Assembly: GCA_030828385.1 (NCBI GenBank)
Contig: JAURCS010000025.1
Span: 1 to 33,299, forward strand
From: Gammaproteobacteria bacterium
Lineage (GTDB): Bacteria; Pseudomonadota; Gammaproteobacteria; Pseudomonadales; Pseudohongiellaceae
Direction: 5' to 3'
DNA length: 33,299 nt
The notes under the pieces were generated by a model. That model made no database searches. It was not told the origin of the DNA and was given only the letters and a program-made list of their open reading frames with translations. A program made the translations under genes and the position numbers. Below, in pieces: positions 8,698 through 24,225 of the stretch (positions within the stretch are counted from its first letter, which is position 1; the number at the start of each line of letters is the position of its first letter).

Positions 8698-8773
8698 ATT
8701 CATTGCTATCCATCAGGATGGCATTTTTTACAGATTATTCATAGCGTTAACTTATTTGCTCGAGGGATGAGAA

Positions 8774-10171
8774 ATGATGGGCGGCAACAAAAAGTCACAA
8801 CAAAAATTCATACTGACCAGAATAGCGACGAATCTAAACAGACGCTTATGGGCAGTACTGCCATGCATGCTGCTGATCCTGCCTTTCTCAACCGTCCAAG
8901 CTGATGACCTGGCACAGATTTTTGAGTTGGCGGCTAACAACGACCCTGAAATCAGACAGGCAAGGGCTAACTATAATGCTTCTCACACCACCATTGATCA
9001 GGGGCGCTCGTTCCTGCTACCGCGGGTAACTGTCGGCGGATCCACCAGCCGTGATACAGCAGGTCCGGCTGTGGAAACTCCTTTTGGGCAACCACACAGC
9101 TTCCAGAATGGCTTTAATACCAAAGGTTACAACCTAAGTATTAATCAGGCCTTACTTAATTTTGAAGCCTGGTATGCTTTTAAAGCCGCAAAAAATACTG
9201 ATCGTCAGGCCGCCGCCAATCTTGCCCAGGCTGAGCAACAATTGATCCTGAAAGTGGCTACTGCCTATTTTAATGTCCTGCGCTCACAGGATAACCTTGC
9301 CTCATTCCAGGGTGAGGAAGATGCTGCAGCACGGGTGCTTGAACAAACCCGCGAACGTTTTGAAGTTGGCCTGATAGCCATTACTGATGTCTATGATAGC
9401 CAGGCAAATTATGATCTGGCCCGGGTAAACCGCCTGGTAGAAGAAAACAATCTTAATCAGGCCCTTGAAGCACTGGAAGCCATTACCGGCCGTCCCCACA
9501 GCAATCTGGAAAGCCTCAGCAGTGATTTCCCGATTGAGTCTTTAAATCCGGATACCCTGGCAGCATGGGTAAATCTGGCAATGGATAATAATTTGGCAAT
9601 CAAGGCGGCAGAATATGACTTTGCCGCCAGGCAGGAGGACGCCAAATCAGCACGTGCCTCGATGTTCCCTACCCTGGAAATCAGTGCCGGTTATGGCTGG
9701 AATCAGTCTGCCAACCCGTTCAGCTTTTTTCCTGCGATTGCCTCGGAGCGCACCAATATTACCCTGAACTTTTCCTACCCACTCTATGCCGGCGGATTGA
9801 ATGGTGCCCGTAAGAGACAGGCTTACTACACGCGTGATGCCAGCGAAGAAGCTTTGCTGAAAACCCAGCGCGACAGTACGCAAAGCATCCGTAACAGCTA
9901 CCGAAACGTTGAAACTGACGTACTTGCTGTACGGGCCCGAGCCCAGGCAATAATTTCCTCTGAAAGCGCCCTGGAAGCTACTGAAGTTGGTGCAGAAGTA
10001 GGTACGCGAAACGTTGTTGATGTGGTTCTGGCCCAACGCACCCTGTTCCAGACGCGTCGTGATTTTGCCAATGCCCGCTACAACTATGTGATTAATACCC
10101 TGACCCTGAAACAGGCCGCTGGCATTCTCAGTCCGCAGGATGTTATTGATTTAAACAACTGGCTGGAATAA
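8774..10171 (+). CDS. tolC: TolC family outer membrane channel protein
   Basis: An outer-membrane/periplasmic channel tunnel that joins inner-membrane pumps in drug efflux and type I secretion. The 465-residue precursor has a long basic N-region, a hydrophobic core (WAVLPCMLLILPF) and a likely cleavage after VQA, giving a mature start at DDLAQIFELAANNDPEIRQA, the normal first helix of the family. The two structural repeats are visible. TAYFNVLRSQ and ERFEVGLIAITDVYDSQANYD are in the first; RNSYRNVETDV and EVGTRNVVDVVLAQRTLFQ are in the second. The ATG at 8774 follows GAGGGATGAGAA, an acceptable binding site; a second ATG follows at once. The gene is convergent with waaA, only 10 bp away. It is more likely a general TolC than a dedicated type I partner, because no ABC transporter is adjacent. 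Confidence 0.94.
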   Translation: MMGGNKKSQQKFILTRIATNLNRRLWAVLPCMLLILPFSTVQADDLAQIFELAANNDPEIRQARANYNASHTTIDQGRSFLLPRVTVGGSTSRDTAGPAVETPFGQPHSFQNGFNTKGYNLSINQALLNFEAWYAFKAAKNTDRQAAANLAQAEQQLILKVATAYFNVLRSQDNLASFQGEEDAAARVLEQTRERFEVGLIAITDVYDSQANYDLARVNRLVEENNLNQALEALEAITGRPHSNLESLSSDFPIESLNPDTLAAWVNLAMDNNLAIKAAEYDFAARQEDAKSARASMFPTLEISAGYGWNQSANPFSFFPAIASERTNITLNFSYPLYAGGLNGARKRQAYYTRDASEEALLKTQRDSTQSIRNSYRNVETDVLAVRARAQAIISSESALEATEVGAEVGTRNVVDVVLAQRTLFQTRRDFANARYNYVINTLTLKQAAGILSPQDVIDLNNWLE

Positions 10172-10181
10172 TCAGTACTGA

Positions 10182-11492
10182 CTAGTGACCGGCGGCTTTT
10201 TTTAAGGCCTGCAATAAAAGCAGCTCACTGATCTCATTGAGATTTCTATCGCTGGCACCCTGATTTTTTTCAACCACCGCCAGCGCAGCTGACTTAATCA
10301 TAGCGGCTTTTTCCTCACTAGCCAGCAAGGCATTCACCGCCTCGGCGAGCTCTTGCGCATCAGCGATACATATCATCCCGCCTGCCTGCAAAAGTTGTTC
10401 GCTTACTGCTTGGAAATTGAAAAGGGAAGGTCCGGTAATCACTGGCAATCCTAGCGCCGCCGGTTCAATAATATTCTGGCATCCGGTGGGCACCAGAGAG
10501 CCACCAACAAAAGCGACATCGGCAAGACTAAAGTAATACTGCATTTCCCCCATGGTGTCTCCCAGTAAAACCTGATGCGAAGCGTCAGCCACACTTTCCC
10601 TGCTACGCCGGGCGCAGCTAAATCCTTGCCTGGTAGCCAGTTCAAAGACTTCATCAAAGCGTTCGGGATGCCGAGGAACCAGGATCAGCAGTAGATCAGG
10701 ATGACTGCCAAGCAAGCTTCTAAACGCCTGCAAAACCTTTTCCTCTTCCATCTCCCCAGCCAGTATTCGCGTACTGGCTGCAATAAGAACCGGTCTGCCC
10801 TGCAAGCTGATCTTATCCCCGAGTGCCCTAGCCACCTGCTCTGTGTTTATTGTCATATCGTATTTCATACTGCCGGCAACAGTGATTTTTTCTTCAGCCA
10901 GACCCAATGACAATAACCTTTCGCGGTCATTTGGTGACTGCGCTGTTACCCTGTCTAACTGCCCAAGCATGGTTCTAACGAGATGGGGAATGCGCTGGTA
11001 GTTATGCAGGGATTTTTCCGATAGCCGGGCATTGGCCAGTAATAAGCGCACTCCCCTTTGAGAGCATGCATGAATAAGATTTGGCCATAATTCAGTTTCC
11101 ATAATGACCACCAGGCCAGGGTCGAAAATATTCAGGAAGCGCTTGATGGCACCAGGCAAATCGTAAGGCAGATAGACATGCGCTACCTTATCCTTCAACA
11201 ATGCCATTACCCGGGCAGAACCAGTAGGGGTTGAAGTGGTGACCAATACAGATAATTCCGGATTATTATCAAGAAGACGGTTTATCAGCGGTTCTGCGGC
11301 ATGAACTTCGCCTACAGAAACAGCATGAAAAATGATATCTGCTTTTTTAAAACCGGTAGATGAGGAATAGAAGGCAAAACGTTCTGACCAGCGCTTCAGG
11401 TAAGCTGGCGAACGCAAAGATCGCAATAGCAATCTCAGAATGATAAGCGGGGTAGCCAGATAAAATAAAAGGGAGTAAATAAACCGGTTCAC
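10182..11492 (-). CDS. waaA: 3-deoxy-D-manno-octulosonic acid (Kdo) transferase
   Basis: WaaA (KdtA) adds Kdo from CMP-Kdo to the lipid A precursor at the cytoplasmic face of the inner membrane, the first LPS-core step. The 436 residues fit the family (425 in E. coli). The N-terminal membrane anchor FIYSLLFYLATPLIILRLLL comes first. The conserved acceptor-domain motifs follow: FHAVSVGEVHAAEPL (with the catalytic Glu), TTSTPTGSARV and IMETELWPNL. The C-terminal half is a GT-B nucleotide-binding domain with FVGGSLVPTGCQNIIEPAALG. Whether one or two Kdo residues are added cannot be told. It is divergent from the FAD oxidoreductase across 114 bp. Confidence 0.96.
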   Translation of the reverse strand: MNRFIYSLLFYLATPLIILRLLLRSLRSPAYLKRWSERFAFYSSSTGFKKADIIFHAVSVGEVHAAEPLINRLLDNNPELSVLVTTSTPTGSARVMALLKDKVAHVYLPYDLPGAIKRFLNIFDPGLVVIMETELWPNLIHACSQRGVRLLLANARLSEKSLHNYQRIPHLVRTMLGQLDRVTAQSPNDRERLLSLGLAEEKITVAGSMKYDMTINTEQVARALGDKISLQGRPVLIAASTRILAGEMEEEKVLQAFRSLLGSHPDLLLILVPRHPERFDEVFELATRQGFSCARRSRESVADASHQVLLGDTMGEMQYYFSLADVAFVGGSLVPTGCQNIIEPAALGLPVITGPSLFNFQAVSEQLLQAGGMICIADAQELAEAVNALLASEEKAAMIKSAALAVVEKNQGASDRNLNEISELLLLQALKKAAGH

Positions 11493-11606
11493 GTTTTTAA
11501 AAATTTATTCCATTGGCGGAAATGAAAAAAATATCCCGGTAAATTTCCGGTTTATCCTGCAACCTGTTTATACTGTCATGCTTTCCCGTTATGCACAAAT
11601 TTCCAT

Positions 11607-12797
11607 ATGACTGAAACCCTGAAAACCGATGTGCTGATTTTTGGAGGTGGTGTTGCCGGACTATGGCTGTTGAACCGCCTCAGAAATGCCGGCTACCAAG
11701 CATGGCTATTTGAACAGGATCGACTGGGTACTGGCCAGAGTATCGCAAGTCAGGGCATGATCCATGGTGGCATCAAATACGCCCTGGGCGGAAAGCTGAC
11801 GACCGCAACCACAACTATTGCAGACATGCCTGCCCACTGGAAAAAATGTCTTGCCGGTGAAGGGGATGTGGATTTACGTGGCTGCAATCTGTTATCCAAA
11901 GACTATTACATGTGGCCACGCAACAGCATTCGATCCAGGCTCAATGCCTTTCTTGGCAGCAAGGCGCTTGAAGCCAAAGTCAGTACTGTTGAAAAAGCCG
12001 ACTACCCGGACTTTTTTAAAGACAGGATCTCCGGTCCTCTCTATCGCCTGCAGGATATTGTGCTGGATGTGCCGTCTCTCCTTTCCACACTAAGCAATGC
12101 CCAGGCAGAGAATATATTCAGCATTGACTGGCAGCAGGCCAGACTTGTCCCCGACACAAAAGGCGGTGTGGAGTGTCTGGAATTTGAAAATGGCCAGCGC
12201 ATCCAGGCGCAGCAATATGTTTTCACATGTGGTGCAGGGACCGAAGTCTTGATGAAAAATTTCGATCTGCCAATCACCACCATGCAGCGTCGCCCCTTGC
12301 GCATGGTAATGGTCAGGCATGGCATTACCGAACCACTTTACGTTCATTGTGTCTCCGACCGGCTCAGCATGACCCCTGAGATGACGATCACCAGTCACAC
12401 CAATGGCACCGGGCAACCGGTTTGGTACCTTGGCGGCGAAATAGCCGAACAGGGCGTGCATCAGACTGATGAAGAATTAATCAAGACGGCCCAAGGCAAG
12501 CTCAAGGAAATGTTTCCATGGTGTGATCTGGATAACGCCAGCTGGGCTACCCTGGCGATTGATCGGGCAGAAGAAAAACAGGCGAGCGGCAAACGCCCTG
12601 ATGATATCAGCATCGCGCAAAACAAAAATTTGATGGTGTGCTGGCCAACCAAGCTGACCCTTGCTCCCAATCTGGCCAATCAGGTTCTGGCGAGAATGCT
12701 GGACTCGGGCCTGACCCCCCATTCTGAAACACCAGCACAGGCTCCGGCATTTCTGCAGCATCCGCAAGTGGCTGCAACCCCCTGGGAGCAACTCTGA
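11607..12797 (+). CDS. FAD-dependent oxidoreductase (DAO / glycerol-3-phosphate dehydrogenase-like)
   Basis: A 396-residue flavoprotein of the D-amino-acid oxidase/GlpD-like group; the substrate is unknown. The N-terminus has the dinucleotide-binding fold VLIFGGGVAGLWLLNRL (GxGxxG as GGGVAG), ending in a Glu at the end of the second strand (AWLFEQD). Next comes a region like the family's second FAD contact, SIASQGMIHGGIKYALGG. YVFTCGAGTEVL is the later GxG strand. No signal peptide or membrane helix is seen. The stop is 2 bases before the ATG of the aldo-keto reductase, so the two are translationally coupled and probably act on related compounds. I recall a similar pair between waaA and hldE in Pseudomonas, so the linkage to LPS genes is old, but no role in LPS synthesis is known to me. 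Confidence 0.8.
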   Translation: MTETLKTDVLIFGGGVAGLWLLNRLRNAGYQAWLFEQDRLGTGQSIASQGMIHGGIKYALGGKLTTATTTIADMPAHWKKCLAGEGDVDLRGCNLLSKDYYMWPRNSIRSRLNAFLGSKALEAKVSTVEKADYPDFFKDRISGPLYRLQDIVLDVPSLLSTLSNAQAENIFSIDWQQARLVPDTKGGVECLEFENGQRIQAQQYVFTCGAGTEVLMKNFDLPITTMQRRPLRMVMVRHGITEPLYVHCVSDRLSMTPEMTITSHTNGTGQPVWYLGGEIAEQGVHQTDEELIKTAQGKLKEMFPWCDLDNASWATLAIDRAEEKQASGKRPDDISIAQNKNLMVCWPTKLTLAPNLANQVLARMLDSGLTPHSETPAQAPAFLQHPQVAATPWEQL

Positions 12798-12799
12798 AC

Positions 12800-13579
12800 A
12801 TGGCGTTCCTGCGTCATATACCTGGCACTGAGCTGAAGATTTCAGCACTTGGCCTGGGTACGGTGAAATTTGGCCGTGATCAATCAGTAAAATATCCGCA
12901 GCAATTCACGATCCCTGATGACAGCGAAGTCACCAATCTGCTGGCGCTGGCAAACAGCGAGGGCATAAATCTACTGGACACAGCACCGGCCTATGGCACC
13001 AGTGAGGAACGACTTGGTAAATTGCTGAGCAATCGTCAGGACTGGGTAATCGTTACAAAAACCGGGGAAGAGTTTGAACAGGGACAATCATCTTTTAATT
13101 TCAGTGGCGCTCATACCCGCGCCAGTATTGAAAGAAGCCTCAAGCGACTCAACACTGATTATCTCGACATAGTATTGATTCACTCCGATGGTAATGACGA
13201 AGACATACTCAAAAACACGGATTGTGTAGCGACACTCAAGCAGTGCCAGCAGGAGGGAATGATAAGAGCAATTGGCATGTCCACCAAAACCAGCAATGGC
13301 GGCTTACTGGCGGCCTCCATGCTGGATATCGTTATGATTACCTACAACCTGGAACAACAGGATCAGGCAGTACTTGATTACGCCCGAAATAATAATAAAG
13401 GGGTACTGGTTAAAAAAGGACTGATGAGCGGCCATGCCGGTTCCATTGCAGACAGCATGTCCCTGCTGTTTGGCAGTAACGGAATCAGCTCGGTGATTGT
13501 AGGGACTATTAACCCGGATCATCTGAAAGAAAATGTGAAACTGGCCAGGGCCGCTCTGGGTGAGATACCCGGGAGTTAG
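12800..13579 (+). CDS. Aldo/keto reductase family oxidoreductase
   Basis: A 259-residue NADPH-dependent aldo/keto reductase, shorter than the usual 310-330. The family tetrad is visible: Asp and Tyr in LLDTAPAYGTSEERLG, Lys in WVIVTKTG, and His in DIVLIHSDG. The C-terminal cofactor loop is short but present (FGSNGISSVIVGTINPDHL). The missing length comes from reduced loops in the second half of the barrel, not from a truncated end. It begins 2 bases after the FAD oxidoreductase stop (12797) and is convergent with hldE across 45 bp. Physiological substrate unknown. Confidence 0.85.
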   Translation: MAFLRHIPGTELKISALGLGTVKFGRDQSVKYPQQFTIPDDSEVTNLLALANSEGINLLDTAPAYGTSEERLGKLLSNRQDWVIVTKTGEEFEQGQSSFNFSGAHTRASIERSLKRLNTDYLDIVLIHSDGNDEDILKNTDCVATLKQCQQEGMIRAIGMSTKTSNGGLLAASMLDIVMITYNLEQQDQAVLDYARNNNKGVLVKKGLMSGHAGSIADSMSLLFGSNGISSVIVGTINPDHLKENVKLARAALGEIPGS

Positions 13580-13624
13580 CGGAATAAAAGGAAAAAATGC
13601 AGCGCATTGATTCCAGTTACGATT

Positions 13625-15055
13625 TTATTTTTTGTCTTTCTTGATCTTTTCTACGATAGCCGAAGTAGAGCAGTTATCTAAAAAAGACAGCACTCTGACT
13701 TCGCCACCATATTGCTGAACAATCTCTGCGCCTACGACACCTTCTATGCCGTAATCACCGCCCTTCACCAGGCAGTCCGGTTTAACTTCTGTTAACAGGT
13801 TTTCCGGCGTGTCTTCTGCAAAAGACACTACCCAGTCGACGGATTCCAGGCCGGATACCACTGCCATACGTCGCTCGATGGGATTAATTGGCCGCCCTTC
13901 TCCCTTTAAACGCCTTACAGACTCATCGTCATTGATGGCGACGATCAGTCTATCGCCACATTTTCGGGCATCCTGTAAATAACCAACGTGGCCAGCATGA
14001 ATTATGTCGAAACAGCCATTGGTAAAGGCGACCTTCTCGCCATGAGCCCGGGCATCCGCTACCACCAAAGCAAGCTGTTCACGGGTCATAACGCCACGAT
14101 CAGATCCACCGTCACTCTGCACTTCCCTGCGCAACTCCGGCCCACTAACAGCAACAGTACCGACACGGGTAACAGCCAGTCCTGCTGCGATATTGGACAA
14201 TGCAACGGCTTCGGGCAAGCCGGCTCCTGCTGCCAGGGCAGCACCCAGAACGGAGATCACGGTATCGCCAGCACCCGTCACATCAAAGACATCCCTTGCC
14301 CGCGCTGGAATATGCAACTCAGCTTCATTGGCACGAATCAGGCTCATTCCATGTTCGCCCCGGGTAACCAGCAAGGCTTCAAGTTCAAGTTCTTTTATTA
14401 ACAGACGGCCTTTTGCTACCAGATCTTCTTCACTTTCACAGGCGCCCATTACCTGTTCAAATTCATGCAGATTGGGCGTCAGCAAGGTCGCGCCACGGTA
14501 CTTGGTAAAGTCCTCACCTTTCGGATCAACCAGTACCCGAACTCCCTGTTTTCTTGCCTGGGTAATAAGCGCACTGACTGCGGCCAGGGCGCCCTTGTTG
14601 TAGTCTGAAACAATAACTACATCGGTGCCATCAAGCAGGGCTGCCACTTTGGCATTAACTGCCTGCGCGCTGCTGATATCAAAAGCTTCTTCAAAATCCA
14701 GTCGAATCAGTTGCTGATGACGACTGACAATGCGTAATTTGGTGATGGTAGGTTTGTCTGCCACTTTTTCGAAATCACAAAGCACCCCCGCCGCACGAAG
14801 CCGTGTTTCGAGCTCCTCACCGGCTTCATCCAGACCCACCAGGCCCACCAGAGTAGCTGCCGCACCTAGTGCCGCTAAATTAAGCGCCACGTTTCCTGCG
14901 CCACCCGGACTGTCCTCTGCATTACCGACTTTCACAACCGGCACCGGCGCTTCCGGAGAAATTCTAGAGGTAGCACCATGCCAGTAACGGTCGAGCATGA
15001 CATCACCAACCACCAACACACGTGCAGTATCAAACTTTGGAATTTCGAGTTTCAT
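13625..15055 (-). CDS. hldE: Bifunctional heptose-7-phosphate kinase / heptose-1-phosphate adenylyltransferase
   Basis: HldE (RfaE) makes ADP-heptose for the LPS inner core. It phosphorylates D-glycero-beta-D-manno-heptose 7-phosphate at C1 and later adenylylates heptose 1-phosphate. The 476 residues are full length and carry both domains. Residues 1-315 are a ribokinase-type kinase with VVGDVMLDRYWHG, SPGGAGNVALNLAALGA and DVTGAGDTVISVLG (catalytic Asp). Residues 340-476 are a cytidylyltransferase-like domain with FTNGCFDIIHAGHVGYL (HxGH). It is divergent from the acyltransferase fusion (104-bp gap) and convergent with the aldo-keto reductase. The heptose is used by WaaF encoded in this window and by WaaC, not seen here. 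Confidence 0.97.
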   Translation of the reverse strand: MKLEIPKFDTARVLVVGDVMLDRYWHGATSRISPEAPVPVVKVGNAEDSPGGAGNVALNLAALGAAATLVGLVGLDEAGEELETRLRAAGVLCDFEKVADKPTITKLRIVSRHQQLIRLDFEEAFDISSAQAVNAKVAALLDGTDVVIVSDYNKGALAAVSALITQARKQGVRVLVDPKGEDFTKYRGATLLTPNLHEFEQVMGACESEEDLVAKGRLLIKELELEALLVTRGEHGMSLIRANEAELHIPARARDVFDVTGAGDTVISVLGAALAAGAGLPEAVALSNIAAGLAVTRVGTVAVSGPELRREVQSDGGSDRGVMTREQLALVVADARAHGEKVAFTNGCFDIIHAGHVGYLQDARKCGDRLIVAINDDESVRRLKGEGRPINPIERRMAVVSGLESVDWVVSFAEDTPENLLTEVKPDCLVKGGDYGIEGVVGAEIVQQYGGEVRVLSFLDNCSTSAIVEKIKKDKK

Positions 15056-15122
15056 TATTTCTTCAATTAACCCGTCTAAAATTGGCGCTAATCATATCAT
15101 AGCCATTGCCAATTGCTGATTC

Positions 15123-15131
15123 TGATACAAT
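15123..15131 (+). promoter_or_regulatory. Extended -10 promoter candidate for the acyltransferase fusion
   Basis: TGATACAAT is an extended -10 element (TG-n-TACAAT) 28 bases upstream of the ATG at 15160. No good -35 box is present at 16-18 bp, which is tolerated by extended -10 promoters. A run of T follows. Confidence 0.4.
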
Positions 15132-15159
15132 GCCGCTGTATTTTTTTTACAAGTGATAT

Positions 15160-16683
15160 ATGCAGACACCTCCTCCTTTAAGTGCCTTTATTGGCATCAA
15201 GTACTGGCCCACCTGGCTGGGCCTGGGCCTGCTCTATATTCTGGTCTGGATGCCCTTTGCGGTGCGTATTAAAGTCGGTGAAATCCTTGGCCAATTAACC
15301 TACTGGCTCGGCAAAGAGCGTCGATATATCACTGCGACTAATATTGCTATTTGTTTTCCCGAGCTAAATGCCGCAGAACAAAATGCGCTTGTTCAAAAAA
15401 GTTTTCAGGAAAATGGCATTGGCCTGATTGAAACCATCACCAGCTGGGTGCGCGATAAAGACAGCTTCAAAAGTCAGGTCACAATGACAGGGCTCGACAA
15501 GCTTAAGGCTGCCGAGGCTGAAGGAAAAGGCGTTCTGTTAATAGGAGCGCATTATTCTACTCTGGATTTTGGCGCCATTCTGTTGTCCATATTTCATTCC
15601 TTTGGCGTGACCTATCGCCCTCATGGAAATGCATTATTCGATGCGTTCATGCTGCGCGGCAGAATATCCAATTGTAATGGCGTCTTTGATCGCAATGATA
15701 TCCGCGGCGCCTACCGTCATCTAAAAGAGGGGAATACACTATGGTATGCGCCTGATCAGGATTATGGCCCCAAGCATGCTGTGTATGCGCCGTTCTTTGG
15801 TCACCCCGCTGCCACCATTACCGCGGCAAGCCGCTTCGCCAGAATAAACAATTCACCAACTTTTCTGGTACGTCATCACAGGATAGATCGCTCCCATCAG
15901 TATGAAATGGAGTTCATTCCCTTTCCTGACAGTTTTCCCGGGAATGATGAGCTCAACGATGCCAGCGTCATCAATACCATGGTGGAAAACGCGATTCGCC
16001 ACTACCCGGCGCAATACCTGTGGATGCACAAACGCTTCAAAACCCAGCCCGGTGGCAAACCGATGAGTCCCTATATCGATATTGCCACCCCTAATCATCG
16101 CCTTACCGAGAAACAGTACTCTCAGGTCATTGAAGGCGCAGACAAGATCTCGGAATTGCAGGAGGTTTATGACTACAAACTTCCCAGTGGCCTGTGGCTG
16201 CGCCAATATCCTGGCACCATCAATAAACGCTCTTATCTTCCGCACCCGGCGAAACTATTTGATCGGCACGCTAAAAACCTGCGCATGCAGGGATTCCAGG
16301 CCATCACGGTAGATAATTTTTTCCGCATCCCGCCAATGAAGCTTTCTGCAGTCACTTATTTTGTTCCATCCGGACCGCTGCTCAGTCAGTTACCCCGCAA
16401 CCTGGTTCCCCTGAAAGCCCTGGCACAATTTATAGCAGAACTCCATAACAAGGGATTTGATTGCAAGAATCCAGGACCCGATCACTTCATTGTCACGGAA
16501 GATTCATTTGCCATTCTTGATCCCACTGACTTTATTTTTGAAGGCAAATCCATCAGCCTGAAAAAAAGACGCAGTGCCGTCATTAATTTGCTGCAAAATC
16601 TTGCTCTGGAAAAACCTGAAGGAGATGAATTCTTTTCCTGGTATGCAAAAGCAGCAGGCCTCAAGGTAAGCGAAGCAGGCTGA
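15160..16683 (+). CDS. LpxL/HtrB-like acyltransferase fused to a degenerate WaaP/InaA-like kinase domain
   Basis: A 507-residue two-domain protein. Residues 1-305 are a lipid A (LpxL/LpxM) type acyltransferase with a membrane-proximal hydrophobic helix (about 15-35), the catalytic HX4D motif HYSTLD (His131, Asp136), WYAPDQDYG near 195-203 and QYLWMHKRFKTQP near 285-297. This half should transfer an acyl chain to a glycolipid at the inner membrane. Residues 310-507 are extra. They follow the layout of a small LPS-type kinase: LWLRQYP (345-351) where VKRY is expected, then LHNKGFDCKNPGPDHFIV (429-445) and AILDPTDF (451-458). Compared with the intact WaaP at 18256-19056 (GICHRDYYICHFMV), the H-R-D triad reads C-K-N and the N-lobe Lys reads Arg. 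The second domain is therefore probably a pseudokinase. The next gene starts 4 bases after the stop. The family call for the first half is firm; for the second it rests on motif alignment by eye. Confidence 0.8.
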   Translation: MQTPPPLSAFIGIKYWPTWLGLGLLYILVWMPFAVRIKVGEILGQLTYWLGKERRYITATNIAICFPELNAAEQNALVQKSFQENGIGLIETITSWVRDKDSFKSQVTMTGLDKLKAAEAEGKGVLLIGAHYSTLDFGAILLSIFHSFGVTYRPHGNALFDAFMLRGRISNCNGVFDRNDIRGAYRHLKEGNTLWYAPDQDYGPKHAVYAPFFGHPAATITAASRFARINNSPTFLVRHHRIDRSHQYEMEFIPFPDSFPGNDELNDASVINTMVENAIRHYPAQYLWMHKRFKTQPGGKPMSPYIDIATPNHRLTEKQYSQVIEGADKISELQEVYDYKLPSGLWLRQYPGTINKRSYLPHPAKLFDRHAKNLRMQGFQAITVDNFFRIPPMKLSAVTYFVPSGPLLSQLPRNLVPLKALAQFIAELHNKGFDCKNPGPDHFIVTEDSFAILDPTDFIFEGKSISLKKRRSAVINLLQNLALEKPEGDEFFSWYAKAAGLKVSEAG

Positions 16684-16687
16684 CGCT

Positions 16688-18199
16688 ATGAACTCATTTA
16701 CCCGAGCATTGCAGAGTGTCGATATCAGGCTGATTGCTATCGTCCTTAGCTGCTGCTTCTCCCTTATCATTATTGCCAGCAGCCCCATCCCAAACGATGA
16801 TGCTTTCAGTTATCTCCGGGCAGCAGAAATATTTTCCCAGCAGGGCATGAATTCCACCCTCGCCAACTATGGTTGGTATTGGTATTCAGTACTGATTGCC
16901 TGCGTGGGAAGCCTGTTACCAATAAGCCTGATGAATGCGGCCCACCTGGTCAATATTCTTGCACTGGCTGTTCTGGTTTATGCCTTTATTACACTGGTCA
17001 TGGAGTTTAATCAGAGCACATCAGTAAAACTTTTCGCCGCAGTGGTAATACTGTGTTATCCCACCATTAATGAGATGCGCTACTTTCTTATTCGTGATTT
17101 TGCCTATTGGGCTTTATGCCTGAGCGCGCTCACGCAATGTATTCGTTTTGGCAAAACCGGCAAACTGGCCAATGCCTGGGGCTGGACCCTGGCCATGTCA
17201 GTAGCGGTTTTATTCAGGCTGGAAGGTTTGATCCTGCTGGCTATCACACCATTTTCACTGCTTGTTCCCGGGGTTACCTCAGTAGAGAAAAAAACAGCCC
17301 GGCTGTTCACGCTTTTATTCATCATGCTGGCTTCGGCGTTAGCAATATTGCTTGTCTTTGCATTGGCGGGTATCAACCTGTTTGAAGTATTCAATTTTAC
17401 TTACCGCTGGTACTTACCCCTACTCAATGAATACCCGGACACCTTAAGCGGTGCAGCACAAAATGCAGCCCTGTCTTCACATATTTCCGAACAGGTCGAA
17501 ATGTTCACCGGCAGGGGAATGATGGTACTTATATTTGGTTATGTTTATGCGCTGGCGAGTACTCTGGTAATGACAATTAGCCCGCCGATTTGTCTATTCC
17601 TTATTTATGGCTGGCTAGGTGGCAGACTCGAGATTTCATCTGAAAACAAATGGCCCTGGCTGTTTTTTCTCATTAGCGCATTACTGGTGTTGCTGACTTT
17701 TGTTTCCATCATGCAGTTTCTGACAACACGCTATGCCGTACTGGCAGCACTATTATTGCTAACGCTACTACCCGGGCTGATTGAAAATCTCTACCAGCTC
17801 TCCATCCGGGAACAAAGTGTTAAACGTTTTAAAATTGTCTTCGTCAGCCTGGCTTTATTTTTTGCAGCAGACAGCCTGGTAAGTTTCGGTTATTCAAAAA
17901 GCTATATCAGGCAAGCCGGTGACTGGACTCGAGAGAATATTGCCCAGGGCAGCAAGGTACAGACCAACAGTTTTGCTGTTGCTTATTACAGCGGTCTGGT
18001 AGCAGACTATGATGACATTGAAACTGATCCTGCAGAAAGCTTTTTGTTGTACGCCGAAAATGATTATCTCGTGCTGAACCTGCCTCATGATGATACTGAT
18101 AGCAGAGAGATTCTTGGCACGATGAGCGGGATCACAGAAATAGCAAGATTTGCTAACAAGCGCGATGATGCCATTGTGATCTACCAGGTACTGCCCTGA
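16688..18199 (+). CDS. Multipass membrane protein, probable GT-C glycosyltransferase (ArnT/PMT-like)
   Basis: A 503-residue integral membrane protein with about 10-11 hydrophobic segments in the first 380 residues and a soluble C-terminal domain of about 120 residues. After the first helix (IRLIAIVLSCCFSLIII) comes SSPIPNDDAFSYLRAAEIF, an acidic Asp37-Asp38 pair at the start of the first periplasmic loop. That is the hallmark of GT-C enzymes that use polyprenyl-phosphate sugars. Large aromatic loops (NYGWYWYSV, FNFTYRWYLPLLNEYP) suit such a fold. It begins 4 bases after the acyltransferase-kinase fusion and is almost surely cotranscribed. By context it could glycosylate LPS or a lipid. The substrate is unknown and a non-enzymatic role cannot be excluded. 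Confidence 0.6.
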   Translation: MNSFTRALQSVDIRLIAIVLSCCFSLIIIASSPIPNDDAFSYLRAAEIFSQQGMNSTLANYGWYWYSVLIACVGSLLPISLMNAAHLVNILALAVLVYAFITLVMEFNQSTSVKLFAAVVILCYPTINEMRYFLIRDFAYWALCLSALTQCIRFGKTGKLANAWGWTLAMSVAVLFRLEGLILLAITPFSLLVPGVTSVEKKTARLFTLLFIMLASALAILLVFALAGINLFEVFNFTYRWYLPLLNEYPDTLSGAAQNAALSSHISEQVEMFTGRGMMVLIFGYVYALASTLVMTISPPICLFLIYGWLGGRLEISSENKWPWLFFLISALLVLLTFVSIMQFLTTRYAVLAALLLLTLLPGLIENLYQLSIREQSVKRFKIVFVSLALFFAADSLVSFGYSKSYIRQAGDWTRENIAQGSKVQTNSFAVAYYSGLVADYDDIETDPAESFLLYAENDYLVLNLPHDDTDSREILGTMSGITEIARFANKRDDAIVIYQVLP

Positions 18200-18245
18200 A
18201 CGAACGCCAGGAATAGTTGTATTAGCGCGCAGTAATCATTGCAGG

Positions 18246-18273
18246 AAAAGCCCTGTCAGGAGTGCCGGCTTTT
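18246..18273 (+). terminator. Stem-loop between convergent GT-C gene and waaP
   Basis: AAAAGCC (18246-18252) pairs with GGCTTTT (18267-18273) across a 14-base loop, followed by AGTTTTG. The T-rich 3' side on both strands suggests a weak bidirectional terminator. It overlaps the last codons of waaP. Confidence 0.5.
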
Positions 18274-19056
18274 TAGTTTTGTTGCGCGCTCAAACACCAG
18301 CTTCCAGAAATCACTTTCCCGAGTCAATGCATTTTTCAAAGACATCCCCGAGTACAGGCGAATAAACCGAAACAGGTCACGGCTTGTCAATCCAATATCC
18401 ATCGCCGAGAAATACAGACTGCCAACATCCTTGATAATCCAGCGACGCTCCAGCTTTCGCTTAACAAGGGCGCGATGCAAATCGATCAAGGTAAGTGAAT
18501 TGCCCTCCTCCTTATCCTGCTCAACATTGCCGGTGACCATGAAGTGGCAAATATAGTAGTCACGATGGCAGATGCCACTACTGTGCATACGGCGACTGAT
18601 AGCGGCTACCTCCCTGATCAAGGCCAGCTTTCTGGCAAACGCTGGCGGCTTGCTCTGCCAGTCACGCGTCAGGTCTTCAAGATTCTCCTGAGTGCCTACA
18701 TCATCGGTAACGATAAAGGATTCGCATGTCTGGGGTAGCAGACCACGCTTTCCATAGGCGGCTATTTGCGGAACGTTGATGCCCAGAACATCGAGGCGGG
18801 AAAGCGCAAGCCATTCATTGCGGGCACTCACCACCGGCAAGCGCAACTGTAAGAGGTTCTTCAGAATTTCTGCAGTAGCGGTACCGCGATGATATTTGAC
18901 AAAATAACGTTTGCCATCCAGATCGACAGCAATAGTTCGCCTGGATTCCAGCGCACGGAATTCTTCGCCCTCCATCCCGGCGATAAACGCAAAGATATTT
19001 TCCTTCGGCAGATGTGGCTGCAGGTCTTCTCTGATAAAGACATCAGTTGCCATCAT
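18256..19056 (-). CDS. waaP: LPS core heptose(I) kinase
   Basis: WaaP (RfaP) phosphorylates heptose I of the LPS inner core in the cytoplasm, a modification important for the outer-membrane barrier. The 266 residues fit the family. Kinase residues are intact: Lys54 in YFVKYHRG, a probable ion-pair Glu81 in SARNEWLALSRL, the catalytic loop GICHRDYYICHFMV (His164-Arg165-Asp166) and the metal Asp192 in LIDLHRAL. The ATG pair at 19051-19056 lies just after GGAGG, a strong binding site. The second ATG has the better spacing, so the true start may be 19053. It overlaps the 3' end of waaG by 14 bp and is the last gene of the waaF-waaG-waaP operon. Confidence 0.93.
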   Translation of the reverse strand: MMATDVFIREDLQPHLPKENIFAFIAGMEGEEFRALESRRTIAVDLDGKRYFVKYHRGTATAEILKNLLQLRLPVVSARNEWLALSRLDVLGINVPQIAAYGKRGLLPQTCESFIVTDDVGTQENLEDLTRDWQSKPPAFARKLALIREVAAISRRMHSSGICHRDYYICHFMVTGNVEQDKEEGNSLTLIDLHRALVKRKLERRWIIKDVGSLYFSAMDIGLTSRDLFRFIRLYSGMSLKNALTRESDFWKLVFERATKLKSRHS

Positions 19057-20179
19057 TGGCCTCCCCGATTGCGTTTAACAGCATTGATGCTACCGCATCT
19101 GGCATATCATAGAGATTCTCTTTTTGTCCGTAGGCTATACCATTAGTGCGCCAACGACTTTTATCTTTGCTCTTCAGCATTTTTTTCAGCGCTTCATTTA
19201 GTGCCTGCTGGCTGAATGGCTCAGTAATGACAACACCCGCCTGCGCCTGCCTGACATGAAAAGCATAGCCACAGGAAGCCGTTGTCAGGACTGGCAAGCC
19301 GGCAACGATGGCCTCAATTAACACCATGCCGGCACTTTCCTTTACCGAAGGGTGTAAAAGGAGATCGGCCCCCTGATAAAAGCGCGGCAAATCATCACGA
19401 CTTTTAAAAAAGGTGACATTTGCTGCTATCCCCATTTTTTCAGCTATTTTTTCATAACGCTGAGAGTCGTCTCTACCAATAATAAATAATCTTGTCTGGT
19501 TTCCAGGTGCTTCGGGCAATGAGGCCAGCGCTGCCAGAGAGCGCTCAACGCCTTTTACAGGGAATCCTGATCCGACCTGCAGTACCAGCAACTGATCGTC
19601 AGTTATACCAAATTCATGACGCAACGATTGCCTCAGCGCTGTCGCATCTTCCCCGGCCATACGATTTCTTTCGATACCGGGAGGAATATTTATCATGCGT
19701 TTACCAGCCTTGGGATAACAGGCCAGGTACTCGTCTTGCTGCCCCGGAGAGAGCATTAATATTTTTGTCTCACTTTGTGGCCCAAAGACTGCTTCTTCAA
19801 ATGCCAGGTATTGGCGACTTCGCGGTGCCATTCGGTAAAGCCAGCCTCTTTCCCGAGTGGCCTTCCAGGCAAAACAGGTATCGGCGGCAAAGTAGTAATC
19901 CAGCCCGGGCAAACGGTTAAAGCCAAGCACCGCCAGGTAATCTTCTGCGGCAGTTATCTGCAAGACAAATTCGGAAAAGGCTTTTCTTGCCGCCACTTTG
20001 TTTTTTACTTTGAAGGAGGGAATTACCCGATTGATGCCCTCGGGCACACTGCCTTCCCAACTCATACATATAACGTCTACTTCAAGTCCTCGCTTAATCA
20101 GGCTGTTGGCGATACCCAGGCAGTCACGCTGCAAACCGCCGTGGGGAAACCAGTTAAACAATACCAGTGCGACTTTCAT
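19043..20179 (-). CDS. waaG: LPS core glucosyltransferase, GT4 family
   Basis: WaaG adds the first hexose of the outer core to heptose II, from UDP-glucose in enteric bacteria; the sugar used here is not known. The 378-residue GT-B enzyme opens with VLFNWFPHGGLQRDCLGIAN and has MSWEGSVPEG, both close to E. coli WaaG (FPFGGLQRD, SWEG). The GT4 donor-site signature ESAGMVLIEAIVAGLPVLTT is complete, with both Glu residues. The ATG overlaps the waaF stop by 4 bases (20176-20179), and its own 3' end overlaps waaP. This is a tightly coupled operon, which supports the specific name over a generic GT4. Confidence 0.92.
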   Translation of the reverse strand: MKVALVLFNWFPHGGLQRDCLGIANSLIKRGLEVDVICMSWEGSVPEGINRVIPSFKVKNKVAARKAFSEFVLQITAAEDYLAVLGFNRLPGLDYYFAADTCFAWKATRERGWLYRMAPRSRQYLAFEEAVFGPQSETKILMLSPGQQDEYLACYPKAGKRMINIPPGIERNRMAGEDATALRQSLRHEFGITDDQLLVLQVGSGFPVKGVERSLAALASLPEAPGNQTRLFIIGRDDSQRYEKIAEKMGIAANVTFFKSRDDLPRFYQGADLLLHPSVKESAGMVLIEAIVAGLPVLTTASCGYAFHVRQAQAGVVITEPFSQQALNEALKKMLKSKDKSRWRTNGIAYGQKENLYDMPDAVASMLLNAIGEANDGN

Positions 20180-21198
20180 GGTGAATCCAGCTCATGCAAA
20201 GAGCGAATGACCTGGTCAGGTTCAAGTAATTTCAGACAGTTGGTATGTCCCAATGGGCAGACTCGCTTGAAACAAGGGCTACACTCCAGTTCCAGGGAAA
20301 CTATCTGGACTTTATCTGCAAGTGGAGGAGTAAACGTCGGGGAAGTTGATCCGTATATTACAACCTGGGGCCGCTTCAGTGCAGCGGCAATATGCATCAG
20401 ACCGGAATCATTACTGACCACACGGGTAGCACAGGACATCAGGTCAATCGCTTCCCCCAGGGTAGTTTTACCGGTCAGATCAATGCAGTGTTCGGGGTCT
20501 GGCTCTGGCAAGGCGTTGATAATTTTCCCCGCATCCTTGCTGTCATTAGCCGAACCCATGATCCAGACCTGGCCAGCTTGAGACAACCAGTGGCTGGCAA
20601 CGGCAGCATAACCTGATGCCGGCCATTTTTTAGCCTCACCAAATTCAGCACCCGGACAAAGTATCAGCACCGGCTTTTGGGTATCCAGTGTGAGTGTAAG
20701 CAACAGCGACACAAGGGAGTCTGCCTTTACTTCAAGCTCAGGACGCGGCAATTCAGAGGGCAAGGCCGTTCCATCCGGGTAAGCCAGAGCAATAAAACGC
20801 TCCACCATCAACGGATGGGCTTGCTTGTCCAACACCCTGCAGTCATTAAGCAACCAGCTTCTGGCTTCACCACGCCAACCTGTTCTGACGGGAATGCCGG
20901 CAAACCAGGGAATGAGTGCGGACTTGAAGGAATTGGGAAGCACTATCGCCTGGTCATAATTCTCCTGCTTCAGTGAACTGGCCAATACCCTGCGCCTGCC
21001 AATGGCCAGCTCACCATGACCAATAGTCATTTCAATAGCACGGCTGATTTGCGGCATATGATCAAGCAGAGCCTTGCACCAGCCAGGAGCAAGCACATGT
21101 ATTTCAACATCAGGAACAATTTGTTTCAGGCTGATGAACAGACTTTGCGCCATCACCATGTCGCCTACCCAGGAAGGACCGATAATAAGGATCTTCAT
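20176..21198 (-). CDS. waaF: ADP-heptose:LPS heptosyltransferase II
   Basis: WaaF transfers the second heptose to the inner core of LPS from ADP-heptose. The 340-residue GT9 enzyme starts MKILIIGPSWVGDMVMAQSL, the WaaF form of the family opening. It contains AIVLPNSFKSALIPWFAGIP and GWRGEARSWLLND. The donor site has LCPGAEFGEAKKWP and CATRVVSNDSGLMHIAAAL. The C-terminus has SPCFKRVCPLGHTNCL. These motifs favour heptosyltransferase II over WaaC. The binding site AAGGG sits 5-9 bases before the ATG. It leads the waaF-waaG-waaP operon. Commonly waaC follows waaF, but here waaG does, with a 4-base overlap. Confidence 0.94.
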   Translation of the reverse strand: MKILIIGPSWVGDMVMAQSLFISLKQIVPDVEIHVLAPGWCKALLDHMPQISRAIEMTIGHGELAIGRRRVLASSLKQENYDQAIVLPNSFKSALIPWFAGIPVRTGWRGEARSWLLNDCRVLDKQAHPLMVERFIALAYPDGTALPSELPRPELEVKADSLVSLLLTLTLDTQKPVLILCPGAEFGEAKKWPASGYAAVASHWLSQAGQVWIMGSANDSKDAGKIINALPEPDPEHCIDLTGKTTLGEAIDLMSCATRVVSNDSGLMHIAAALKRPQVVIYGSTSPTFTPPLADKVQIVSLELECSPCFKRVCPLGHTNCLKLLEPDQVIRSLHELDSP

Positions 21199-21313
21199 GC
21201 GCCCTTACTCACTTGTCCGGGTTTATCGGTTATCAGTTTTATAATAAGAAACATGGCAAAAACATCTCTTTCGGGCATCGCCACAATGCCTGCTGGCAAT
21301 TTGGCACTCAAGC

Positions 21314-23189: not shown

Positions 23190-24155
23190 TCAGGGGGACA
23201 GCTGCGCACGCAACTTTTTAACTGCGGCTAAACTTTTCGGTGAATCTATAAATTCCTGCTTCAGCTTTCCGATCGTAGTAGAGACTGTGCCATAACGTTT
23301 TAAACCAAAACGCAGGGAAATATCCTGCAAGGTAACGCCCGCAACTTCCTGACACAGGTACATGGCTGTCCAGCGTGGCAGATTCCTCGAGCCGGGGCCA
23401 CGAGCAGCCTGATAGATACTTTTTTCAGTCACTTTGAACTGTGTTGCAACGGCAGCCACCACTTTTTTTATCGAAGGACGTAATCTGGCCTGCGGACCCT
23501 TGAACTTTCCTCTTGCCGTGCCAGGCACAAGTTTTCCCTGTGCACGCTTTTTGAATCGCTCATCACCAAGAATGGAAAGTAAATTTTTCTTTCCATAAAA
23601 ATGCGCCAGCTCTGCATCCACACCTTGAGCAACATAAGCCCCGTAACGGGCATTTGGGCGCGCGCCCGGAGTCATCAGGGAAATCACTTCTTCCCGTTTT
23701 AGCCAGGCAGGGGCTTTTACCTTATTGGTATAAGCAGTAAGGGATGACCAGGTATAGCTTTCAGGCCTGGTTTTATTTTTTTTGGGTATGTTATGAATAT
23801 AACGGGACACACCTAACAGGTACTTTTCAGGTTGCAGCAGCACAGATTTATAGCGTGACTTGAAAACCGAGCCACTTTCTTTTTTCAGCTTCTGGTAATG
23901 CTGCGTGTAGAGCCCATCGACCTGACGCATAAAACGACTGAGGTTTCCTTCCGGTGTTTTTATTACCAGATTGTATTCATTCCTCAGCAGGCAATAGCAA
24001 ATAATATCCACATTAAAGCGTTTACCAGCTTCGGCAATACAATCCAGGAAAGCCTGAAAATATTTAGGCCCGGGGAATACTGATACCCCCTCTTCTCCAC
24101 GATTGGTGACATGGTAATACGCATTGGGATATTCGATTCGTAATGGTCTGGCCAT
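23190..24155 (-). CDS. Y1 (IS200/RAYT-like) transposase relative lacking HUH, with DnaA domain IV-like tail
   Basis: A 321-residue protein from the ATG at 24155. The frame is open 15 codons further, but MARPLRIEYPNAYYHVTNRG is the standard family start. The transposase IS200-like fold is clear from that opening, LYTQHYQKLKK, SVFKSRYKSVLL, YLLGVSRYIHN and the PESYTWSSLTAY region. The HUH metal motif, normally NHYHLL or similar, reads NEYNLV (residues 59-64): both His are gone, so single-strand nicking should be lost. A family Tyr (83 or 87) remains. Residues about 225-305 resemble the DnaA C-terminal DNA-binding helix-turn-helix: WTAMYLCQEVAG, LQDISLRFGLKRYGTVSTT. It has no terminal inverted repeats and is probably a domesticated DNA-binding protein. 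It lies between cmoB and the GspE-type gene. Confidence 0.75.
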   Translation of the reverse strand: MARPLRIEYPNAYYHVTNRGEEGVSVFPGPKYFQAFLDCIAEAGKRFNVDIICYCLLRNEYNLVIKTPEGNLSRFMRQVDGLYTQHYQKLKKESGSVFKSRYKSVLLQPEKYLLGVSRYIHNIPKKNKTRPESYTWSSLTAYTNKVKAPAWLKREEVISLMTPGARPNARYGAYVAQGVDAELAHFYGKKNLLSILGDERFKKRAQGKLVPGTARGKFKGPQARLRPSIKKVVAAVATQFKVTEKSIYQAARGPGSRNLPRWTAMYLCQEVAGVTLQDISLRFGLKRYGTVSTTIGKLKQEFIDSPKSLAAVKKLRAQLSP

Positions 24156-24188
24156 AATCTCTACTAGTATCCTTATTTTTTTATAGTC

Positions 24189-24225
24189 AGCAATCAACAC
24201 GGCTTAATATTGGCTGATGATTGCT
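24189..24225. repeat. Inverted repeat upstream of the transposase-like gene
   Basis: AGCAATCA (24189-24196) and TGATTGCT (24218-24225) form a perfect 8-bp inverted repeat with a 21-base spacer, 34 bases before the ATG at 24155. It may be an autoregulatory site or a degenerate REP-type structure. Confidence 0.4.

Follow-up and report, generated by a model that had tools for sequence, protein, structure and literature searches.

Lipid A serves as an outer-membrane anchor, and its acylation controls the tightness of the outer membrane. LpxL and the kinases of lipopolysaccharide (LPS) act on the same inner-core molecule, and the LpxL of enteric bacteria acts only once Kdo is in place. Known members of the LpxL/HtrB group (TIGR02207, PF03279) stop at approximately 300 residues, and we know of no accessory domain for LpxL. 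Among the LPS kinases, the catalytic residues of WaaP are given in PMC6147952. In PMC8005017, which was the only directly relevant report retrieved by a literature search with PA4998 and LPS terms, the PA4998 gene lies between msbA (PA4997) and waaL (PA4999) and beside hldE, and is entered as a putative 'kinase'; its Pseudomonas syringae counterpart is listed as a 'toluene tolerance protein' of unknown function.

The LpxL-type fusion gene and its neighbourhood

In the window, i.e. the whole stretch of 33,299 nucleotides that was analysed, the fusion gene (15160..16683, + strand) forms an open reading frame of 507 aa. Its acyltransferase domain of the LpxL/HtrB type (residues 13–295; 15196..16044, +) matches Pfam Lip_A_acyltrans (PF03279) at 216.7 bits versus a cut-off of 22.3 bits, and the best Foldseek match is LpxM (5knk/5kn7). 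The score against TIGR02207 (292.2 bits) does not reach the cut-off of 297.8 bits but is still the best among all NCBIfam models; because it lies just under the cut-off, the protein was filed as LpxL-type. The HX4D acyltransferase motif (H131–D136; 15550..15567, +) is invariant in all 17 aligned proteins. The fusion resembles known LpxL/HtrB proteins in its N-terminal 300 residues, its HX4D site, and its nearest solved fold (LpxM, 5kn7), whereas it extends beyond them by approximately 200 residues of kinase fold. The gene product is a predicted LpxL-type secondary acyltransferase of lipid A, and would catalyse the acylation of Kdo2-lipid IVA with acyl-ACP as donor. Three Lip_A_acyltrans genes are present in the window's genome, one of them a partial match, and the single PF06293 match in this genome is the WaaP protein of the window. 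Nucleotide identity to a near relative (L007) is 76–78% at window positions 15301–15900 and 85–99% over the rest of 8701–21200, and an allele exchange in the LpxL half is possible.

The divergent neighbour, hldE (13625..15055, −), adjoins the fusion in all 16 fetched loci (L002–L017). Downstream, after a gap of 4 nt, lies a gene for a 503-aa protein with no Pfam match (16688..18199, +), which is likely co-transcribed with the fusion and possibly encodes a sugar transferase; it follows the fusion in 12 of the 16 loci (exceptions, L010, L012, L016, and L017). This gene is conserved after LpxL, fused or unfused, and adjoins a stand-alone kinase-fold gene in L079, L194, and L195. The window also contains waaA for Kdo transferase (10182..11492, −), waaF for heptosyltransferase II (20176..21198, −), and waaP for heptose I kinase (18256..19056, −), whose product has an intact H-R-D motif. 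By BLAST on the fetched stretches, WaaP was not seen in L010, L012–L014, L016, and L017; a gene scan using ATG starts only misses some WaaP genes, and the WaaP absences in that scan were discounted. A Y1 transposase (IS200-like) with a DnaA-C-type helix-turn-helix domain is encoded at 23190–24200 (−). The first-pass annotation had read both the intact acyltransferase site of the fusion and the preserved kinase motif of WaaP correctly, and its remark that no described enzyme with this pairing was known to it agrees with our literature searches for an LpxL–kinase-fold pairing, which retrieved no paper.

The C-terminal kinase-fold domain

The C-terminal domain (residues 306–507; 16075..16680, +) was identified by structure and profile comparison. 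Searches of Pfam, NCBIfam, and PDB sequences with residues 310–507 gave nothing credible, and the domain would therefore escape annotation. PDB sequence searches with the domain yielded three matches at E-values of 0.87 to 1.8, or none, and PF06293 (WaaP/KdkA) gave no match at an E-value of 10. Structure comparison of a confident model identified a two-lobed kinase fold, with the WaaP–ACP entry 6dfl among the nearest structures, and a C-terminal fold that is not kinase-like is thereby ruled out. PRPK/Bud32 and APH, which are active kinases on other substrates, share 9–16% identity with the domain.

Unlike WaaP (6dfl) and PF06293, the window's domain lacks H-R-D, the beta-3 Lys, and the alpha-C Glu. 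The beta-3 Lys is replaced by R348 (16201..16203, +), the alpha-C Glu by F367, which is followed by D368 (16258..16263, +), the H-R-D motif by C435-K436-N437 in the alignment (16462..16470, +), and the catalytic-loop Asn by H442 (16483..16485, +); D454 of D454-P455 at the DFG position (16519..16524, +) is the only residue of the WaaP/KdkA catalytic set that is retained. Conservation was compared between 21 fused and 44 stand-alone domains, taken from the fetched loci with filters on hmmsearch E-value (1e-7), length, and coverage. A second fusion (L160) and another kinase matching in the C-lobe only (L170) were left out of the fused count, five partial rows were dropped, and weak C-lobe matches on frames of about 480–770 aa, except those in L180–L189, stand outside the counts. 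The HRD His is found in none of the 21 fused domains, the HRD Asp in 2, Lys in 1 (Arg in 14 and Trp in 6), the loop Asn in 6, and the DFG Asp in 15 (Asn in the other 6); Lys and the HRD Asp never occur together. The catalytic-Asp position is occupied by N, K, H, D, R, Q, S, or E, and the alpha-C Glu position by Phe (12 proteins) or Leu (9), compared with Phe in 42 of the 44 stand-alone proteins.

Other positions are conserved. H429 is common to all fused and all stand-alone domains, and a further set is conserved only in the fused form: D368 and P455 in 21/21, and T and D of T383-V-D385 (16306..16314, +), absent from the stand-alone family, in 20/21 each. The fused domain is weakly basic at best, with a median charge of +2.5 per 100 residues versus +5.8 in the stand-alone family.

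No working residue set exists in the 21 fused proteins, and the fused form as an active LPS kinase was rejected. The kinase-type layout proposed in the first-pass annotation was thus recovered as a kinase fold, and no orthologue with a working H-R-D and Lys was found. Its claim of lost catalytic residues holds across the orthologues, but the particular residues C-K-N and Arg vary from one to another. The assignment as a pseudokinase likewise stands, except that the loss began before the fusion, as stand-alone proteins already have F-R-S at the H-R-D position (38/44) and Phe for the alpha-C Glu (42/44). Judged from these alignments, the C-terminal domain is a pseudokinase that has been stripped of its ATP-site residues. 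It has nevertheless been kept by evolution.

Relatives, distribution, and history of the domain

A profile of the fused domains was searched against 293 genomes of the order and 369 of the class (E-value, 0.001), and relatives were found in 53 and 26 genomes, respectively; as in all genome counts given here, related genomes are included and are not independent of each other. Most strong matches are stand-alone genes of approximately 220 aa, and the weaker ones are C-lobe matches to other kinases. In hhalign comparisons, the fused and stand-alone profiles matched over 200 columns with a probability of 99.8% (E-value, 1.9e-28), and the stand-alone profile matched WaaP at 80.3% (E-value, 1.4e-5), whereas the direct match of the fused profile to WaaP was not significant (1.0%; E-value, 0.051). 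The closest kin of the domain are thus the stand-alone proteins, which fit far better than WaaP, and simple descent of the domain from the neighbouring WaaP was rejected.

A scan of 28 stand-alone proteins at an E-value of 0.1 or better gave matches to PF06293 for 19 and to APH for 13 (best values, 1.2e-6 and 7.3e-8, respectively), and some members of the family exceed the PF06293 cut-off (26.3 versus 21.3 bits for L067). The Kdo kinase model is matched by 27 of the 28, far below the cut-off as far as shown (23.9 versus 142 bits for L067). The stand-alone family is a branch of the LPS-kinase/Bud32/APH group that is not clearly inside PF06293. Lys, the loop Asn, and the DFG Asp are each present in 44/44 stand-alone proteins; in the six without F-R-S at the H-R-D position, the third place is Asp (three), Gly (two), or Ala (one). 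Alignment A4, comprising the stand-alone family and L160, shows the signature F-R-S..H..N without exception in its 28 rows. Both this signature, which reads C-K-N..G..H in the window's domain, and Lys (R348) are missing from the latter, which is therefore a diverged relative and not a typical member. The two forms are homologous and both lie in LPS gene neighbourhoods, but the stand-alone form is a separate protein that keeps Lys, Asn, the DFG Asp, and F-R-S, and the fused domain has lost these. Despite its atypical catalytic base, the stand-alone family seems capable of binding nucleotide, and the fused domain does not. Three stand-alone relatives with Asp at the H-R-D position (L164:1492-2214, L176:1321-2028, and L177:1492-2271) may have stayed active as kinases and are the candidates for this within the family. 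A tblastn search of plasmids with a stand-alone protein gave no match. Judging from gene order, the stand-alone family is probably that of Pseudomonas PA4998.

The surroundings of the stand-alone genes were examined in 35 regions of at most 16.5 kb, each from a different genome, by scoring msbA, hldE, waaA, lpxL, waaP, waaF, waaC, waaG, lpxK, and kdsB. At least one of these LPS genes was present in 27/35 regions (the exceptions being L080, L082, L085, L087, L090, L192, L214, and L215), versus 0/20 control stretches of the same size. The hldE gene is directly divergent from the stand-alone gene in L074, L075, and L193, and lpxK-kdsB precedes it in L198. In L216, hldE is divergent from lpxL and the stand-alone gene follows 87 nt further on; this locus corresponds to that of the window in unfused form. 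The arrangement in L220 is the same, except that one kinase gene lies between lpxL and the domain, which is cut by the contig end. In L084, the stand-alone gene overlaps lpxL by 4 nt in the opposite order.

Among 138 genomes of the family to which the window belongs, 21 have the full fusion with an open frame, which rules out a single bad assembly as its source. It is present in all seven genomes of the window's genus, in nine of a second genus, in which, among the genomes listed, a tenth carries a fragment and G305 has none, and in five of a third genus. In the LpxL tree, the 21 fused proteins group together (support, 100) as part of a larger clade (support, 98) that also contains 12 unfused LpxL proteins of the same family and one of another, and the branching order within the latter clade is unresolved. 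The 21 fused domains likewise form one clade in the domain tree (support, 99). Ten loci (L180–L189) represent other genera of this family: hldE is divergent from a plain lpxL that is followed by the 503-aa gene in 9/10, directly in 5/10. No stand-alone domain was found in the genera represented by these loci, indicating that LpxL works without the domain. WaaP-like proteins in L187 (2579-4129, +; 516 aa) and L189 (2424-3965, +; 513 aa) contain an H-R-D motif together with a second kinase motif, H-G-D, and may therefore combine two kinases; in other unfused genera, the H-G-D protein is a separate one of 481–499 aa near waaP.

Fusions of the same domain family also occur elsewhere. A second LpxL–kinase-fold fusion of 605 aa (L160:333-2150, −), just downstream of msbA, was found in one MAG (G758) from another family of the class, and in none of the other four genomes of that family; a frameshift in this MAG is possible. 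It retains Lys, F-R-S, Asn, and the DFG Asp and groups with the stand-alone proteins in the domain tree, which, if it is real, indicates a separate fusion event. In four genomes of a Pseudomonas-like family (f21; G153, G217, G257, and G296), long frames proved to be O-antigen-ligase-like proteins with the domain at the C-terminus (L252:1697-4633, L253:4168-6159, L254:3934-5790, and L255:4033-5943), matching PF04932 (48.7–56.4 bits) and PF06293 (22.8–28.0 bits) within a single open frame; msbA and hldE lie in the vicinity. The one translated (L254; an ATG-started ORF of 618 aa) keeps kinase-site residues of the stand-alone kind. Like the window's fusion, these are membrane LPS enzymes with the same domain C-terminal, but they carry PF04932 in place of PF03279. 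Fusions to both LpxL and an O-antigen-ligase-like protein indicate that the domain family is a repeated partner of membrane LPS enzymes.

Comparison with the two nearest orthologues gave dN/dS values of 0.089 and 0.086 for the C-terminal domain versus 0.113 and 0.097 for the LpxL part. In the 7 of 21 genus pairs with unsaturated dS, the values for the domain range from 0.049 to 0.215. These low values indicate that the domain is maintained by purifying selection. Outside the genus, identity is 24–30% for the domain and about 45–49% for the full-length protein.

Possible roles of the fused domain

We regard it as very likely that the gene combines an LpxL-type enzyme with a kinase-fold domain that was drawn from an LPS-linked stand-alone family, has been stripped of its ATP-site residues, and is under selection. 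The domain most likely serves as a non-catalytic cytosolic module that binds either the acceptor headgroup or an LPS-assembly partner. The roles suggested in the first-pass annotation, namely recognition of a sugar-bearing glycolipid or control of acylation, are plausible candidates. In the explanation that we tentatively prefer, this binding module would lie at the cytosolic face of the inner membrane and bind the acceptor, Kdo2-lipid IVA or a heptosylated form, by its sugar-phosphate headgroup, at the position used for this by a sugar kinase of the same fold, thereby bringing the acceptor to the acyltransferase site or delaying acylation until the right core sugars are present. This explanation draws on the kinase fold, the homology to the stand-alone family, some members of which reach PF06293, the lost ATP-site residues, purifying selection, the residues conserved only in the fused form, the frequency of LPS genes near the stand-alone genes, the finding that lpxL lies next to the stand-alone gene in L216 and L084 and two genes away from it in L220, the second LpxL fusion in L160, and the inner-core molecule that LpxL and the LPS kinases share as substrate. 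The unfused LpxL proteins of L180–L189 and the weakly basic character of the domain count against it, and taken whole, acceptor binding included, it falls somewhat short of an even chance.

That the domain is a decaying, functionless remnant of a gene fusion seems very improbable: its faster evolution than LpxL at larger distances and the drift of its kinase residues would fit decay, but the dN/dS range, the open frame in 21 genomes, the residues invariant only in the fused form, and the confident fold argue against it. It is improbable, too, that the domain still binds and senses nucleotide or performs another transfer as an unorthodox enzyme. The DFG Asp of 15/21 fused proteins and the Lys, Asn, DFG Asp, and invariant F-R-S..H..N of the stand-alone family and L160 (28 rows) speak for such a role, yet in the window's family Lys, the HRD His and Asp, and the loop Asn are lost or drifting and Asn replaces the DFG Asp in 6/21. 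K51A, H161A, D163A, and D188N are moreover among the WaaP variants tested in PMC6147952, most of which failed to support growth.

LpxL uses acyl-ACP, and the domain might instead hold this donor, in the way WaaP was crystallized with acyl-ACP. The tight binding of acyl-ACP by Pseudomonas aeruginosa WaaP, as described in PMC6147952, and the presence of 6dfl among the nearest structures favour this role. However, according to the same report, WaaP grips ACP mostly by a basic three-helix subdomain (residues 218–263); at about 200 residues the fused domain is shorter than WaaP (264), and it is less basic than its stand-alone relatives, which makes a donor site a poor prospect. The alternative that comes next after acceptor binding, although itself less likely than not, is that the domain tethers LpxL to LPS assembly proteins (MsbA, WaaA, WaaP, or heptosyltransferases) at the cytosolic face and does not bind the acceptor. 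Two different membrane LPS enzymes carry a domain of the family (LpxL and the PF04932 proteins of four genomes), and the stand-alone gene occurs beside msbA, hldE, waaA, or lpxK-kdsB, as would suit such docking. The O-antigen ligase reaction is periplasmic, so cytosolic acceptor binding is a less natural role for the domain on O-antigen-ligase-like proteins; the discovery of these fusions raised the standing of docking and lowered that of the acceptor-binding step.

A wider reading takes in the whole family, although we doubt that it holds in full. The PA4998-type proteins could be cytosolic subunits of kinase fold, largely pseudokinases, that assist or gate membrane LPS enzymes, free-standing in most species and in some built into LpxL or an O-antigen ligase; the window's fusion would then be a fully non-catalytic, permanently attached form in which a dead kinase couples acylation to inner-core status.

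The fusion links a little-studied kinase-like family to lipid A and LPS assembly. It also opens a way to study the conserved stand-alone proteins encoded beside msbA and hldE, most of which, from their sequences, lack the catalytic Asp. If acylation is coupled to core assembly through a conserved pseudokinase on LpxL, the mechanism would be new.
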